In this document: piece by piece, positions 12,293 to 17,143 of the stretch | How positions within the stretch are numbered: position 1 is the stretch's first letter | Layout of the letters: every line of letters begins with the position of its first letter | Assembly: GCA_002699125.1 (NCBI GenBank) | Contig: PABI01000002.1 | Coordinates: forward strand, 45,779 to 109,778 | DNA: 64,000 nt | Direction of reading: 5' to 3' | Origin: Anaerolineaceae bacterium | GTDB lineage: Bacteria > Chloroflexota > Anaerolineae > Promineifilales > Promineifilaceae | The notes under the pieces: generated by a model | What the model saw: the letters and a program-made list of their open reading frames with translations, nothing else | Told to the model about the DNA's origin: nothing | The model's database searches: none | Translations under genes and position numbers: made by a program

Positions 12293-15190
12293 ATGACGCA
12301 GTCGCCCCCGGAAAATCAGGACTTTCTCAGCAAAACGGTTGAAAACGTCAAAGATATGCCGCCCCCGCTGCGGTTTGGCATCGTCTTTTTTGCCTTGTTC
12401 CTCTTTGCTGTCTTGGGAAACGCAGTGGTGCCTGATGATTTTGTTCTACTCGTTTACCTTCTCTCCATAGGTGTTTTGTTTTTTTACCTCATTTGGGAAT
12501 ACCAGCAGCGCCTCCAGAAAAAGGACGAACTGGCTCACGAACTGCGCAAAACTGAGCTTGAATATGAAGACCGCAAAGACGAGCGCATTCACGAGCGCGA
12601 ACTTAAAAAAATTGAGACGCCTGCGCCTACATCACCACCTGCTAAAATAGTGCCGCCGGATGAGCTGCGCCTCGATTACCTGAACTGGGTGCGCACCCAG
12701 GTGAGCGAACTTTCCTTGCTGGGCGTAGACCCGGAAGCCACGCGCGACGAGCAGGAAGGCCGCCTGCACCTGGACCGCGTTTATACCGCGCTGCTCACCG
12801 CCGACGCCGAGGCAGCAAAGCCGCAGCAGATGGAGCTGTTTGGTCGAGGCGAAAAGCATCTCTCTGCTGTGGCACAACTTAACCAACACAACCGGCTGGT
12901 GCTGTTGGGTGACCCTGGCGGCGGCAAAAGCACCTTCGTTAACTTTGTGGCCATGTGCCTGGCTTTTGAAGGGCTGGGCGAAACAGAACGGGGTATTCAG
13001 TTGCTGACTGCACCGCTGCCGGATAACGAAGGGAAAGATGAGGAGGAGCGCCAGCCGTGGGATCACGGCGTGCTGCTGCCGCTGCGCGTCATCTTGCGTG
13101 ACTTTGCCGCCCGTGGGCTGCCCTCGCCAGACAAGCAGGCCAATGTGAATGATTTATGGGATTTTGTTGAGGCAGAGCTGGCGGCGGCAAACCTGGAACT
13201 TTGCGTTCCCTACTTGCAAGAACAGTTCATGGTCGGACAGGCCATTTTGCTGCTGGACGGCCTGGACGAGGTGCCGGAGGCCGACAAACGGCGCGCTCAA
13301 ATCAAGCAGGTGGTTGACGCCTTTGCCTACAAATACCGCAACAGCCGTATCGTAGTCACCAGCCGCACCTACGCCTACCAAAAGCAAGATTGGGAGCTGG
13401 ATGGCTTTAAAGATGGGCTGCTGCTGCCCTTTAGCGCCGGGCAAATTCACCGCTTTGTCGACAGCTGGTATGCCTACACGGCCTGGCGGCGGGAGATGGA
13501 ACCGGGACTGGCCCAATCGCGCGCCGATGCCCTGAAGCACGCCGTCTTTAACCAGCCCCGCCTGTACGAACTGGCCGAAAGGCCGCTGCTGCTGACGCTG
13601 ATGGCCAGCCTACACGCCTGGCGCATGGGCGAACTACCCGAAGACCGGCAAAAGCTGTATGAAGAAACCGTTGATTTGCTGCTGAACCGCTGGGAGCGGC
13701 GGCAGCGGGTGTGGGACGGACAAAAAGAGCGCGACATGCAGCCCAGCCTGGTGGAGTGGCTAAAAACAGACCGCAGCAAGGTGCGCGAACTGCTCAACCA
13801 TCTGGCCTATGAAGCCCACCGCGAACAAACAGACCAGACGCGTACCGCCGACGTGCCCAAACAAAAGCTAATGGATGGGTTGCTGGCGCTGAACCAGAAC
13901 CCGGACGCCCGCTTTATCCAGTTGGAAAATTATTTGCGTGACCGGGCCGGCCTGCTGGCGGAGCGTGCTGAGGGCGTTTACACCTTTCCTCACCGCACCT
14001 TTCAGGAATATTTGGCCGCCTGTTACTTTGTGCAGCAGGACCCGGCTTACCCGGAGTCGCTGGCAAAGCTGGCGCGGCATGAACCAAACAAATGGCGCGA
14101 GGTGCTGCTGCTGGCGGGAACCCAGGCCGGCCGCAACCAGGTTTGGTATTTGGTGGAAGCCCTGTGCCCACGTGCGCCGGTAGAAGGACGGCTGGAGGAC
14201 GAAGATTTGTGGGGAGCGCACCTGGCCGGGCAGGCGCTGGTGGAAACAATTGAGCCAGACGCACCCCTGAAAGAGCGCAACCAGGAAACGCTGCGGCAAA
14301 TTGTAGCCGGACTACTGGTTTGCCTGACAGACAAACGGCTGCCGCCGACGGAACGAGCCATTGCCGGGATGGTGCTGGGCACGCTGGGTGATCCGCGCTC
14401 GGACGTGGCTCGTGACGTGCCGGAGATGGTGGAAGTACCTGCCGGGCCGTTCTTAATGGGCAGCGATAAGGCGAAAGATAAAGATGCGTCTGATAATGAA
14501 ACGCCGCAGCATGAGGTGACCCTGCCCGCTTACAAGATGGGCAAATATCCGGTGACAAACGCACAGTTTGCCCGGTTTGTAGCGGATGGTGGGTATGAAA
14601 ATGAGGCTTACTGGACCAAAGCAGGCTGGGCGCAAAGAGAAAAACAGGGCTGGACGGAACCGCGCTACAGTGACACTCCGCGCTACAATCAGGCCAACCA
14701 GCCCGTGGTGGGGGTAAGCTGGTATGAAGCCGTGGCTTACTGCAACTGGCTAAAAGCCACCACCGGGCGTGACTTCCGGCTGCCGGATGAGGCGATTTGG
14801 GAAAAGGCGGCCCGGAGTACGGACGGCCGTATCTACCCCTGGGGCAATGAATGGCTTCCCGAAAATTTGAACAGCAGTGAATCCAACATCAACCGGCCGT
14901 CAGCCGTGGGTATCTTCCCGGATGGTAAATCACCTTACGAAGCATATGATATGTGTGGCAACGTGTGGGAATGGTGCAGCACGGTCTACGGCCAGAATTA
15001 TCCTTTCCAGATAGTGGTGTATGAACAGGAGATCGAAGGCAGTAACCCTCGACGCTTGCGCGGGGGCGCGTTCTTCTACGATCAGGGGCTCAGCCGCGCC
15101 GCGTTCCGGGGCTACCGCGGCATTCCCGATTACAGGGACGACGGCGTTGGGTTTCGGGTTGCCGAACATCTCTCCATTTCTGGCTCCTGA
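12293..15190 (+). CDS. DGR target protein: membrane-anchored NACHT NTPase with C-terminal FGE-type (C-type lectin fold) variable domain
   Basis: This 965-residue protein has an unusual layout. Two membrane helices (about residues 27-64) are followed by a charged coiled coil (about 65-110). A NACHT/STAND NTPase domain follows with Walker A GDPGGGKST at 206-214 and Walker B LLLDGLDEVPE at about 319-329. Next is a helical arm to about residue 705, then a formylglycine-generating-enzyme-like domain from about 711 (EMVEVPAGPFLMGSD) to the C-terminus. The last 40 residues are encoded by the variable repeat matching the template at 16840-16953, so this is the diversified protein of a retroelement. 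The FGE fold serves here as a ligand-binding scaffold rather than a sulfatase activator. By analogy with STAND proteins it should oligomerise on ligand sensing. A GGAGAG ribosome binding site supports the start. No catalytic effector domain is recognisable. Confidence 0.93.
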   Translation: MTQSPPENQDFLSKTVENVKDMPPPLRFGIVFFALFLFAVLGNAVVPDDFVLLVYLLSIGVLFFYLIWEYQQRLQKKDELAHELRKTELEYEDRKDERIHERELKKIETPAPTSPPAKIVPPDELRLDYLNWVRTQVSELSLLGVDPEATRDEQEGRLHLDRVYTALLTADAEAAKPQQMELFGRGEKHLSAVAQLNQHNRLVLLGDPGGGKSTFVNFVAMCLAFEGLGETERGIQLLTAPLPDNEGKDEEERQPWDHGVLLPLRVILRDFAARGLPSPDKQANVNDLWDFVEAELAAANLELCVPYLQEQFMVGQAILLLDGLDEVPEADKRRAQIKQVVDAFAYKYRNSRIVVTSRTYAYQKQDWELDGFKDGLLLPFSAGQIHRFVDSWYAYTAWRREMEPGLAQSRADALKHAVFNQPRLYELAERPLLLTLMASLHAWRMGELPEDRQKLYEETVDLLLNRWERRQRVWDGQKERDMQPSLVEWLKTDRSKVRELLNHLAYEAHREQTDQTRTADVPKQKLMDGLLALNQNPDARFIQLENYLRDRAGLLAERAEGVYTFPHRTFQEYLAACYFVQQDPAYPESLAKLARHEPNKWREVLLLAGTQAGRNQVWYLVEALCPRAPVEGRLEDEDLWGAHLAGQALVETIEPDAPLKERNQETLRQIVAGLLVCLTDKRLPPTERAIAGMVLGTLGDPRSDVARDVPEMVEVPAGPFLMGSDKAKDKDASDNETPQHEVTLPAYKMGKYPVTNAQFARFVADGGYENEAYWTKAGWAQREKQGWTEPRYSDTPRYNQANQPVVGVSWYEAVAYCNWLKATTGRDFRLPDEAIWEKAARSTDGRIYPWGNEWLPENLNSSESNINRPSAVGIFPDGKSPYEAYDMCGNVWEWCSTVYGQNYPFQIVVYEQEIEGSNPRRLRGGAFFYDQGLSRAAFRGYRGIPDYRDDGVGFRVAEHLSISGS
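15054..15167 (+). repeat. DGR variable repeat (VR) at the 3' end of the NACHT-FGE gene
   Basis: This 114-bp segment encodes residues 921-958 of the target. It is collinear without gaps with the template repeat at 16840-16953. I count 20 mismatches and all 20 fall on template adenines (11 A to G, 8 A to T, 1 A to C); no other template base differs. Fifteen codons are altered (residues 928-930, 932-933, 938, 940-944, 947, 949-951). The last 22 bp, ending GGGTTGCCGAAC, are identical and GC-rich, as expected for the initiation-of-mutagenic-homology site. Confidence 0.97.
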
Positions 15191-15276
15191 ATCCTGTCTT
15201 CTGTCTTCTGCTTTTTCTGTTTTCTAAAAATCTTTCCCTTTTATTACCTTGTCAGGTAAGATTGTGCCCATTAAAA

Positions 15277-16432: not shown

Positions 16433-16775
16433 ATCACCCATCTTTGCCAAACTGTACGACCTGCTGCGCTGGCTGCTGCCGGCCACAACAAAATATTCGC
16501 GTGAGTATCGGTTTGGTTTGGCACTTCCCACGCAAGAAAACGCTTTTTTGTTACAAAGACATCTGGTATCTGCGGCCAAACTACAAGATGCGCGTGACAG
16601 TTCAGACCATTTGCAGCAGGCAGAGATTGAATTGACGTTGCTTCGTTACAAAGTACGGCTGGCTCGCGACCTTGAATTACTGCGACCCGGCAGCTACGAA
16701 CACGCCAGCCGCCTCATAGATGAAATTGGCCGATTATTGGGCGGTTGGATGAAAAAACAAGGTATTGTCAGCTAG
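16425..16775 (+). CDS. avd: DGR accessory variability determinant (Avd)
   Basis: Avd is a small basic four-helix-bundle protein that forms a pentameric barrel, binds the DGR reverse transcriptase and template RNA, and is needed for mutagenic cDNA synthesis. This 116-residue protein has the family pattern: LYDLLRWLLP, a Lys/Arg-rich YSREYRFGLAL, then LLRYKVRLARDLELL and the C-terminal IDEIGRLLGGWMKKQ. ATG 16425 is chosen because the family similarity begins there. It overlaps the RT stop by 8 bp, so the two are translationally coupled. Confidence 0.93.
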   Translation: MSESPIFAKLYDLLRWLLPATTKYSREYRFGLALPTQENAFLLQRHLVSAAKLQDARDSSDHLQQAEIELTLLRYKVRLARDLELLRPGSYEHASRLIDEIGRLLGGWMKKQGIVS

Positions 16776-17143
16776 TGACCCGAACGATTGGTCACTTGCT
16801 GAAATGTAGCATTTGGGTTGGGTACTCAGCCTGGGGACAGCTTGCGCGGGGGCGCGTTCAACAACAATCAGAGGAACAGCCGCGCCGCGTACCGGAACAA
16901 CCACAACAATCCCGATAACAGGAACAACAACGTTGGGTTTCGGGTTGCCGAACCTCTCTCGTCAGGGTGCCGGAAATGTCATGCCTGGATCAGGCATGGC
17001 CGAGGTTTGAGAGATGTACCCACATGCTGCCGGTTCTGCCCCAAACCGGTGCGGCTCCATGAGCCGACTAAGTTTTGGACTCTGTACTCCAACAGCAATG
17101 CTCTGCGAAGGTTTACAGAGTCCAGTTCAATTGTTGTGAAACT
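16776..17143 (+). ncRNA. Template RNA region of the DGR (contains TR 16840-16953)
   Basis: This 368-bp non-coding stretch holds the template repeat. A 6-bp hairpin GTGACC/GGTCAC (16775-16795) sits at the avd stop, 45 bp before TR. Downstream of TR lie an 8-bp hairpin CATGCCTG/CAGGCATG (16980-16987, 16991-16998) and an 11-bp inverted repeat TGGACTCTGTA/TACAGAGTCCA (17076-17086, 17114-17124). These may structure the RNA that guides RT and Avd. The exact RNA ends cannot be seen from sequence. Confidence 0.75.
16840..16953 (+). repeat. DGR template repeat (TR)
   Basis: This is the invariant 114-bp donor copy of the variable repeat. Its variable core holds 31 adenines, most of them in 12 AAC/AAT codons when read in the target frame (Asn runs such as FNNNQRN and RNNHNNPDNRNNN). 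Random replacement of both adenines of an AAY codon gives 15 amino acids and no stop, the usual design of DGR templates. It is 65 bp downstream of avd. Target-RT-avd-TR is an uncommon gene order. Confidence 0.97.

Follow-up and report, generated by a model that had tools for sequence, protein, structure and literature searches.

We analysed a window of 64,000 nucleotides (nt) from contig PABI01000002.1 (positions 45,779 to 109,778 of the forward strand) of an Anaerolineaceae bacterium of the Chloroflexota, in which a receptor gene of NACHT type is followed by a diversity-generating retroelement (DGR). A preliminary description of this DNA had proposed a complete element rewriting the receptor, and all of its parts, that is the target gene, its variable repeat (VR), the reverse transcriptase (RT), the accessory protein Avd and the template repeat (TR), were confirmed within 12293-16953. 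The genes and repeats, in window positions, are:

12293..15190, + strand: target gene, 965 residues, with a two-transmembrane (two-TM) hairpin, a NACHT NTPase and an FGE-fold sensor (open reading frame, Pfam, AlphaFold, VIA-align)
12362..12502, + strand: predicted two-TM helical hairpin, codons 24-70 (hydropathy; model helices 24-41 and 48-108)
12656..14392, + strand: NACHT and helical region, codons 122-700, with Walker A GDPGGGKS at 206-213 and Walker B LLLDGLDE at 319-326
14417..15163, + strand: FGE-sulfatase (C-type-lectin-like) fold, predicted sensor, codons 709-957
15054..15167, + strand: VR, 114 nt, target codons 922-958, no cysteine within
15359..16432, + strand: DGR reverse transcriptase, TTG start, 357 residues, GNQTSQ and YVDD intact
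16425..16775, + strand: Avd accessory protein, 116 residues from the ATG at 16425 (bAvd, NF033474)
16840..16953, + strand: TR, 33 adenines, no codon able to mutate to stop

The repeats, the retroelement proteins and the receptor

An unbiased repeat search, made with no prior knowledge of DGRs, returned a repeat pair at 15054-15174 and 16840-16960 with 83% identity. The 114-nt core (15054-15167 against 16840-16953) contains 20 mismatches (11 A>G, 8 A>T and 1 A>C), every one at an adenine of the copy at 16840 and none at the 81 other positions. Because all the core mismatches fall on its 33 adenines, the copy at 16840 was taken as the template. With random placement as the null, the hypergeometric probability of this adenine bias is 6e-14 and a chance repeat was rejected on this test. 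The sole non-adenine mismatch (C in the TR, A in the VR) lies at 15168, outside the core, and the identity ends at 15174. The count of 20 mismatches restricted to template adenines had been given in the preliminary description and proved exact, as did its coordinates for the element and its content, the TR and the 114-bp VR at the 3′ end of the target included. Over codons 922-958 the TR has a coding potential of about 10^18.8 proteins. A search of the assembly with the TR returned only the TR and the VR, with no further VR copies.

The RT keeps both YVDD and IGNQTSQ, so that the G-x3-S-Q motif reported earlier is present and the enzyme is of the DGR type. It matches RVT_1 in Pfam (5.4e-22), and its best match in the PDB is 8ub7 (E 8.8e-49), which in the aligned part has the sequence of the BPP-1 brt gene. 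None of the NCBIfam models listed gives it a score above the cut-off, the best being a group II RT/maturase (137.6 bits against 300), and its best PADLOC model is a general RT model. It is 54% identical to the RT of Ca. Viridilinea (L083). For Avd we chose the ATG at 16425 as the start, within an open frame that extends back to 16359; with this start it overlaps the RT frame, which ends at 16432, by 8 nt. The overlapping gene was correctly recognised as Avd, since it is above the cut-offs of both Pfam (bAvd PF22296, 73.5 bits against 40) and NCBIfam (DivGenRetAVD NF033474, 85.6 bits against 80). A related RT of 424 residues (P0127) carries RVT_1 and bAvd in a single reading frame and is thus an RT-Avd fusion. 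That the locus is a DGR joined to a receptor is as good as certain.

The identification of the target as a membrane-anchored NACHT protein with an FGE-type lectin-fold domain is supported by Pfam, AlphaFold, VIA-align and hydropathy. The FGE-sulfatase match is strong (E 4.8e-62), and the AlphaFold model (pLDDT 85.5, pTM 0.74) matches in VIA-align the NACHT NLRs NLRP3, NLRC4 and NOD2 as well as the TvpA/FGE and EgtB/FGE folds. Having both Walker A and Walker B in its NACHT domain, the target has the make-up of an NLR-like STAND NTPase, here joined to a diversified FGE/CLec domain as in DGR clade 5D. In the model the TM hairpin is followed by a long charged helix reaching residue 108. The NCBIfam model EruA gave 23.8 bits against a cut-off of 1000. 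For the variable surface a cytoplasmic position is predicted, because the loop of the two-TM hairpin is short and without lysine or arginine (K/R) and because the NACHT domain needs ATP. The preliminary description had placed the variation on a likely sensing surface, possibly for phage or cell recognition. The VR does lie in the FGE-fold tip, the predicted sensor; with this tip predicted to be cytoplasmic, intracellular sensing is more likely than recognition between cells at the surface.

To follow variation in the VR, seven target homologues (61-85% identical) were aligned, of which five have a readable VR; P0004, which ends before the VR, and P0006, which is out of frame inside it, were excluded from the VR comparison. 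Between the five orthologues and the window only 3-5 of the 19 adenine-bearing VR codons are identical (16-26%), as against 16-18 of the 18 codons without a template adenine (89-100%); in the same proteins the remainder of the FGE domain is 67-82% identical and the NACHT part 66-89%. Judged from these alignments, change in the orthologue VRs is adenine-limited at the protein level. The earlier claim that the element has been active is thus borne out by adenine-limited change both against the TR and among orthologues, the comparison across relatives that had been proposed for it. In this comparison of relatives neither of two findings that it had named as contrary was made: the motifs of the RT are intact, and the VRs of related genomes differ almost only at adenine codons. 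It is likely that the DGR remains active today. The excluded P0006, a homologue from Ca. Leptofilum with 65% identity, is out of frame from a point inside the VR, through either a frameshift or a sequencing error.

Sequences downstream of the two repeats

The features outside the genes and repeats are:

16950..17032, + strand: structured RNA domain directly 3′ of the TR, with closing helix P0, P1 and hairpin P2 (match to model R1, covariation)
17076..17124, + strand: predicted long hairpin at the 3′ side of this RNA, its arms pairing perfectly over 11 bp (folding)
15277..15302, no strand assigned: perfect palindrome, 13-bp arms, loopless, 109 nt after the VR; candidate target-site hairpin or cruciform
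15317..15340, no strand assigned: second inverted repeat, 11-bp arms and 2-nt loop, between the palindrome and the RT

Six relatives, aligned without the window, share a closing helix (P0) starting right after the TR, followed by the short helix P1 and by P2, a hairpin, with compensatory changes. On these six an RNA model, R1, was built with the window excluded, the seed alignment (A6) being made by MAFFT and the structure drawn by hand; A6 was chosen since alignments A4 and A5 misaligned some rows. R1 matches 17 of 74 sources at E <0.03, 11 of the 17 being outside the seed (some sources represent the same contig twice). In the window the match lies at 16950-17032 with 24.2 bits and E 0.024 over 696 kb; within 1 kb around the site E is 3.5e-5, the next best score being 9.8 bits, and all 16 modelled pairs form. 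Across the 17 loci standard pairs occupy 94.4% of 270 cells, compared with 45-53% when the partners are slid by 1-3 columns, and both-sided change is seen in 14 of 16 pairs, which 1 of 500 shuffles reaches, although pair counts from alignment A8 lean towards the model because A8 was fitted to the model structure. The covariation score is 0.716, against 0.230 in shuffles, with none of the 500 as high.

A second model built from the 17 loci, R2, adds two loci, L062 (20.1 bits, E 0.042 in the whole search) and L081 from the Ktedonobacterales (30.6 bits, E 6e-5); at L076 (Chloroflexales) E is 0.13. Since it has no match in most other Ktedonobacterales and Chloroflexia loci searched, the fold is shown for a subset of these elements. 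When L062 is counted with the 17 there are 18 places, and in 14 of them the first 3-8 nt of the model overlap the end of the TR; the exceptions are L131 (at -34), L120 (at +173) and L114 and L119, which have no TR in the survey and carry an adenine-rich, TR-like sequence upstream of the RNA. The RT precedes the RNA in some loci and follows it in others. The orders RT-Avd-TR-RNA (window, L062, L097, L099, L113) and Avd-TR-RNA-RT (L098, L101, L104, L107, L109) have the RNA domain in common. A covarying domain of this kind offers a handle for finding TRs where the VR is missing.

In the phage BPP-1 the spacer 3′ of the TR is described as folding, recruiting RT-Avd and priming cDNA synthesis (PMC12875486). 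Applied to BPP-1 and three other viral DGR loci, R2 gave nothing at the BPP-1 spacer, its best score (13.8 bits) being in another locus and off any known TR, so that a fold common to the phage spacers is not shown. By eye, a similar GGTTCTG stretch is seen in RNAs of the window type and in the BPP-1 spacer. Rfam returned no match at the gathering threshold in the window, nor at E up to 1 in 15160-17200, and a literature search combining diversity-generating retroelement with covariance model gave matches only on other RTs.

Downstream of the VR, an inverted repeat with a stem of at least 8 lies 20-160 nt away in 31 of 54 places; in shuffled sequence the frequency is 1.7%, and in stretches drawn at random from these loci 8.9%. 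The 54 places include the window, omit L090 and count some VRs twice (L069, L096). In these 31 the repeats start 46-121 nt after the VR and the loop is 3 nt in 20. L062 has a palindrome with 12-bp arms, of other letters, 105 nt after its VR. Phage DGRs carry stems of 7-10 bp with 4-nt GRNA loops 4-34 bp after the VR, and these are needed for homing according to PMC3240598; the window likewise has an inverted repeat downstream of the VR, but its palindrome is farther off and its loop unlike that phage consensus. It is a good candidate for a target-site element, at a greater distance and with another loop than in phages. A terminator scan listed no terminator at the palindrome, and this role for it was rejected.

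Known systems, probable mosaic receptors and the likely cassette

Dore et al (2024, PMC10907252) have already put forward both the architecture and the idea in their work on DGR clade 5, and the window locus adds a member; added here are the RNA domain 3′ of the TR, the inverted repeat after the VR, the absence in two congeners and the mosaic receptors. Clade 5 is described there from multicellular bacteria, filamentous Chloroflexi included, with targets in which NACHT or nSTAND1 is fused to a VR-bearing FGE/CLec domain, some with TIR or KAP, and which are proposed as antigen sensors. The same source presents CLec domains tied to STAND proteins as not yet experimentally characterised and the role of DGR-rewritten proteins in cellular hosts as an open question. 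A link between FGE domains varied by DGRs and conflict systems is drawn in PMC7159879. The closest likeness is to DGR 3 and DGR 6 of Thiohalocapsa PB-PSB1 and to clade 5D, in which a diversified C-terminal C-type-lectin/FGE domain is fused to NACHT or nSTAND1, a role as antigen sensor is proposed and filamentous Chloroflexi are among the hosts (PMC10907252); unlike these, the window has one target rather than two, and the target has an N-terminal two-TM hairpin.

With BPP-1 the locus shares the RT (37% identical over 82%), Avd (E 5e-7), the TR, an adenine-limited VR, RNA 3′ of the TR and an inverted repeat after the VR. It differs in gene order (RT-Avd-TR, against Avd-TR-RT in BPP-1), in the target (NACHT-FGE rather than a tail fibre), in the distance of the candidate palindrome (109 nt after the VR, against 4-34) and in that R2 has no match at the BPP-1 spacer. 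TvpA of Treponema denticola is a surface lipoprotein and, unlike the window target, its solved chain has no NACHT domain. Like the bacterial NACHT/Avs antiviral STAND proteins, the target has an NLR-type NACHT core, a C-terminal sensor and an N-terminal effector slot, but its sensor is rewritten by a DGR and it has no PADLOC match.

Many Chloroflexota loci have TR/VR pairs adjoining related RTs. The 58 pairs contain 843 adenine and 11 other mismatches, totals that are not an independent estimate because the finder penalised non-adenine mismatches, and a few pairs are doubtful or come from the same contig twice. Avd-type proteins occur in 31 of 59 related genomes, above the cut-off in 24. The domains of the targets were scanned in 36 of 48 rows (of the 12 left out, 8 are cut at a contig end and 4 are doubtful or distant; targets <200 residues were omitted from the list). 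All 36 have the FGE domain at the C-terminal end, and in front of it mostly signalling or effector modules: NACHT in 19 (17 above the cut-off), TIR in 6, CHAT in 3, KAP in 2, a kinase in 1, SAP in 1, PKD in 1 and other or none in 3. A bacterial Death-like domain (L100) and EAD1 (L097) were each seen once among the relatives. A hydrophobic segment begins within the first 200 residues, before residue 200, in nine of the 19 NACHT targets, and in L098, L110, L113 and L117 a TM pair or long stretch resembles that of the window. Among the best 120 of at least 3532 target homologues, such a segment begins before residue 150 in 32.

By comparing the window target part by part with 12 homologues we found that identity is unevenly spread. 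In L062 the FGE domain is 58% identical, the NACHT domain 35% and the N-terminus 22%, with an RT 76% identical to that of the window; in L133 the corresponding values are 61, 34 and 29%, with 81% over residues 2-90 of an RT that lies at the contig edge (G017:C143). A similar tendency is seen in L064 and L097, whose FGE domains are 55% and 49% and NACHT domains 33% and 34% identical. The lean is opposite in L101, P0013 and P0023, with NACHT 49, 57 and 54% against FGE 40, 50 and 46%, while L113 and P0010 show little difference between the two parts. In the orthologues P0002 and P0007 NACHT is 77% and 65%, FGE 69% and 70% and the RTs 81% and 79% identical (RT and target being paired through contigs of equal length, 4964 and 62069, taken as the same contigs); P0005 resembles them, with 68 and 71%. 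Because the differences run in both directions they suggest that the receptors are mosaic, sensor plus RT and NACHT plus effector having been exchanged, though uneven constraint may also account for them. Such mosaics suggest that sensor plus rewriter forms the unit and that the effector is what is exchanged.

The receptor and the DGR are absent at the same site in two congeners, G002 and G003, from which the following feature was drawn:

12167..17143, + strand: receptor and DGR, likely one cassette; borders approximate, combined from both congeners

In G003 synteny is kept to the left and right, in blocks with a DNA identity of 78-84%, and the aligned flanks are 28 nt apart compared with 5671 nt in the window; only 5 nt separate its matches to LGT and GNAT, and a DUF433-DUF5615 pair is also missing. 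G002 keeps this pair (84% DNA identity), the alignment stopping at 12184 and resuming at 18707, so that GNAT and the pair at 18034-18686 are missing there too. The two absences combined delimit a unit of about 5 kb, which on this comparison was likely gained or lost as a whole. Matches between the cassette borders are of 9 nt or less, with no longer terminal repeats, and the GC content of the cassette (0.555, against 0.53 in the flanks) gives no clear sign of import. The host assembly (G000) has 8.05 Mb in 188 contigs with 8.39% contamination; since both flanks are syntenic with G003 at 78-84% DNA identity, the contig belongs to the genus and bin contamination was rejected. Small, single-copy in the assembly and complete, the locus brings receptor, RT, Avd, TR, RNA domain and candidate palindrome together in about 5 kb, and this compactness, with the absence at the same site in close relatives, gives defined borders for reconstitution and for reading the VR in metagenomes.

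A search of the congeners for the RT gave no match in G003, short broken pieces and weak matches in G002 and one weak match in G001 (75% complete). Elsewhere in G002, a SAP-FGE gene (L131:4222-5950) has a TR/VR pair with 13 adenine and no other mismatches, together with the RNA domain; no RT or Avd match was found in the 10 kb examined around it and no intact related RT in the G002 assembly, so that L131 is an orphan or trans-served cassette. At L130:3533-5848 (G002:C72) a decayed element is seen, in which an FGE gene adjoins fragments of a DGR RT interrupted by several stops, and G002:C12 has a TR/VR pair without a nearby RT.

Proposed mechanism and its alternatives

We consider it probable that the DGR rewrites the tip of the FGE domain so that the NACHT protein keeps changing its predicted ligands, with sensing inside the cell and a response at the membrane to follow. 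By analogy with BPP-1, RT and Avd would bind the structured RNA directly 3′ of the TR, prime on this RNA and make an error-prone copy of the TR, misreading its adenines; this cDNA would then replace the VR at a site that may be marked by the palindrome. By analogy with NLRs and bacterial STAND proteins, the predicted cytoplasmic tip would bind a ligand, for which a phage product is the likeliest candidate, oligomerisation would follow through the ATP-using NACHT domain, and the clustered two-TM hairpins would damage the membrane or signal there, an infected cell likely being ended and its kin spared. Receptor and retroelement, as one cassette of about 5 kb, would likely be gained or lost together. 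A role of the receptor in defence is somewhat favoured. More tentatively, and with the balance slightly against it, Chloroflexota may possess a mobile, exchangeable adaptive-immunity cassette: death receptors of NLR type would have their cytoplasmic tip rewritten by a retroelement that its own conserved structured RNA and a far-set palindrome steer, the sensor and retroelement being swapped among NACHT, TIR, CHAT or kinase effectors, and the RNA forming a new family that marks these cellular DGRs.

Several points weigh against this interpretation. The antiphage role is putative; PADLOC had no match for the target, whose NACHT score (24.3 bits) is just below the Pfam cut-off of 26.7. The topology is not certain, because the stretch after the TM hairpin has 12 aspartates or glutamates beside its 11 K/R and because Dore et al predicted one NACHT-CLec target to be periplasmic (PMC10907252). 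The two TMs may serve as an anchor only, and 4 of the 19 NACHT relatives have a similar TM pair or long stretch while 10 of 19 have no N-terminal hydrophobic segment. The fold from the TR to the 3′ end of the RNA is moderately stabler than shuffles in the window (z -2.0, 2 of 100 as good). In the control BPP-1 the longest-repeat rule picks a 9-bp repeat some 100 nt downstream and misses the known 8-bp one, so that the palindrome of the window is a candidate only. Finally, the exact target protein is found in four contigs, perhaps one assembly deposited several times, with no VR change among them.

This last identity is what would be seen if the element had once been active and were now silent, its VR frozen and the receptor left with one fixed ligand, and such elements do die, as seen in the broken RT of G002:C72 and the pair without RT in G002:C12. 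However, the window shows no damage to its RT, Avd, TR, RNA domain or palindrome, and the 114-nt core is free of the non-adenine changes expected to build up in a dead element, which makes silence unlikely. It would seem less probable again that the rewritten tip detects proteins of other strains instead of phage, in kin or self/non-self recognition resembling that of fungal NLRs in heterokaryon incompatibility. This possibility is offered for the same class of targets in PMC10907252 and would suit a nearest named homologue from the filamentous genus Ca. Leptofilum; on the other hand, foreign cell proteins would reach a cytoplasmic tip only by injection or fusion, and random rewriting of such high potential should suit unforeseen ligands better than stable kin tags.

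We think it a little more improbable still that the protein is a regulatory or environmental sensor of the host and not a defence protein. Cyanobacterial DGR targets have been linked to regulatory tuning (PMC7517822), but the relatives of the RT diversify NACHT, TIR, CHAT, KAP, Death-like and EAD1 proteins, a set of domains tied to conflict systems (PMC7159879, PMC10907252). The diversified domain could also be a working FGE-type enzyme whose variation tunes its substrate, as its strong FGE-sulfatase match and EgtB/FGE fold might imply. When the domain was aligned with the formylglycine-generating enzyme 6muj, however, of the two cysteines in the RGGSYLCHDSYC stretch of that enzyme, which we take to be the catalytic pair, one is unopposed in the window, while opposite the other stands Leu 933, encoded by a mutable codon. 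Among the structure matches, C336S and C341S mutants of the human enzyme appear as PDB titles. The only cysteines of the domain are Cys 817, 888 and 895, with none after 895. In the absence of paired active-site cysteines a catalytic FGE was rejected, and we regard this explanation as very improbable.

The host may be filamentous: the nearest target homologue with a genus name is from Ca. Leptofilum, whose family is Promineifilaceae and whose filaments are given as 10-70 x 0.7-0.9 (presumably μm) in activated sludge (PMC10746286). Toxin-antitoxin-like pairs flank the cassette: the DUF433-DUF5615 pair (Pfam) at 11574-12166, present in the G002 stretch and not in that of G003, and a pair at 18034-18686 that by eye reads as ribbon-helix-helix and PIN, present in the G003 stretch and not in that of G002. 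A palindromic octamer, ACGGCCGT, occurs 85 times in the 64 kb (1.1 expected from shuffles, the largest number being 5), and 2 of these copies fall within the 5-kb cassette (12185-17143). G003 has 21 copies over 19 kb, G002 has 18 over 15 kb and L062 has 3 over 7.5 kb. It presumably resembles a highly iterated palindrome such as HIP1 of cyanobacteria.

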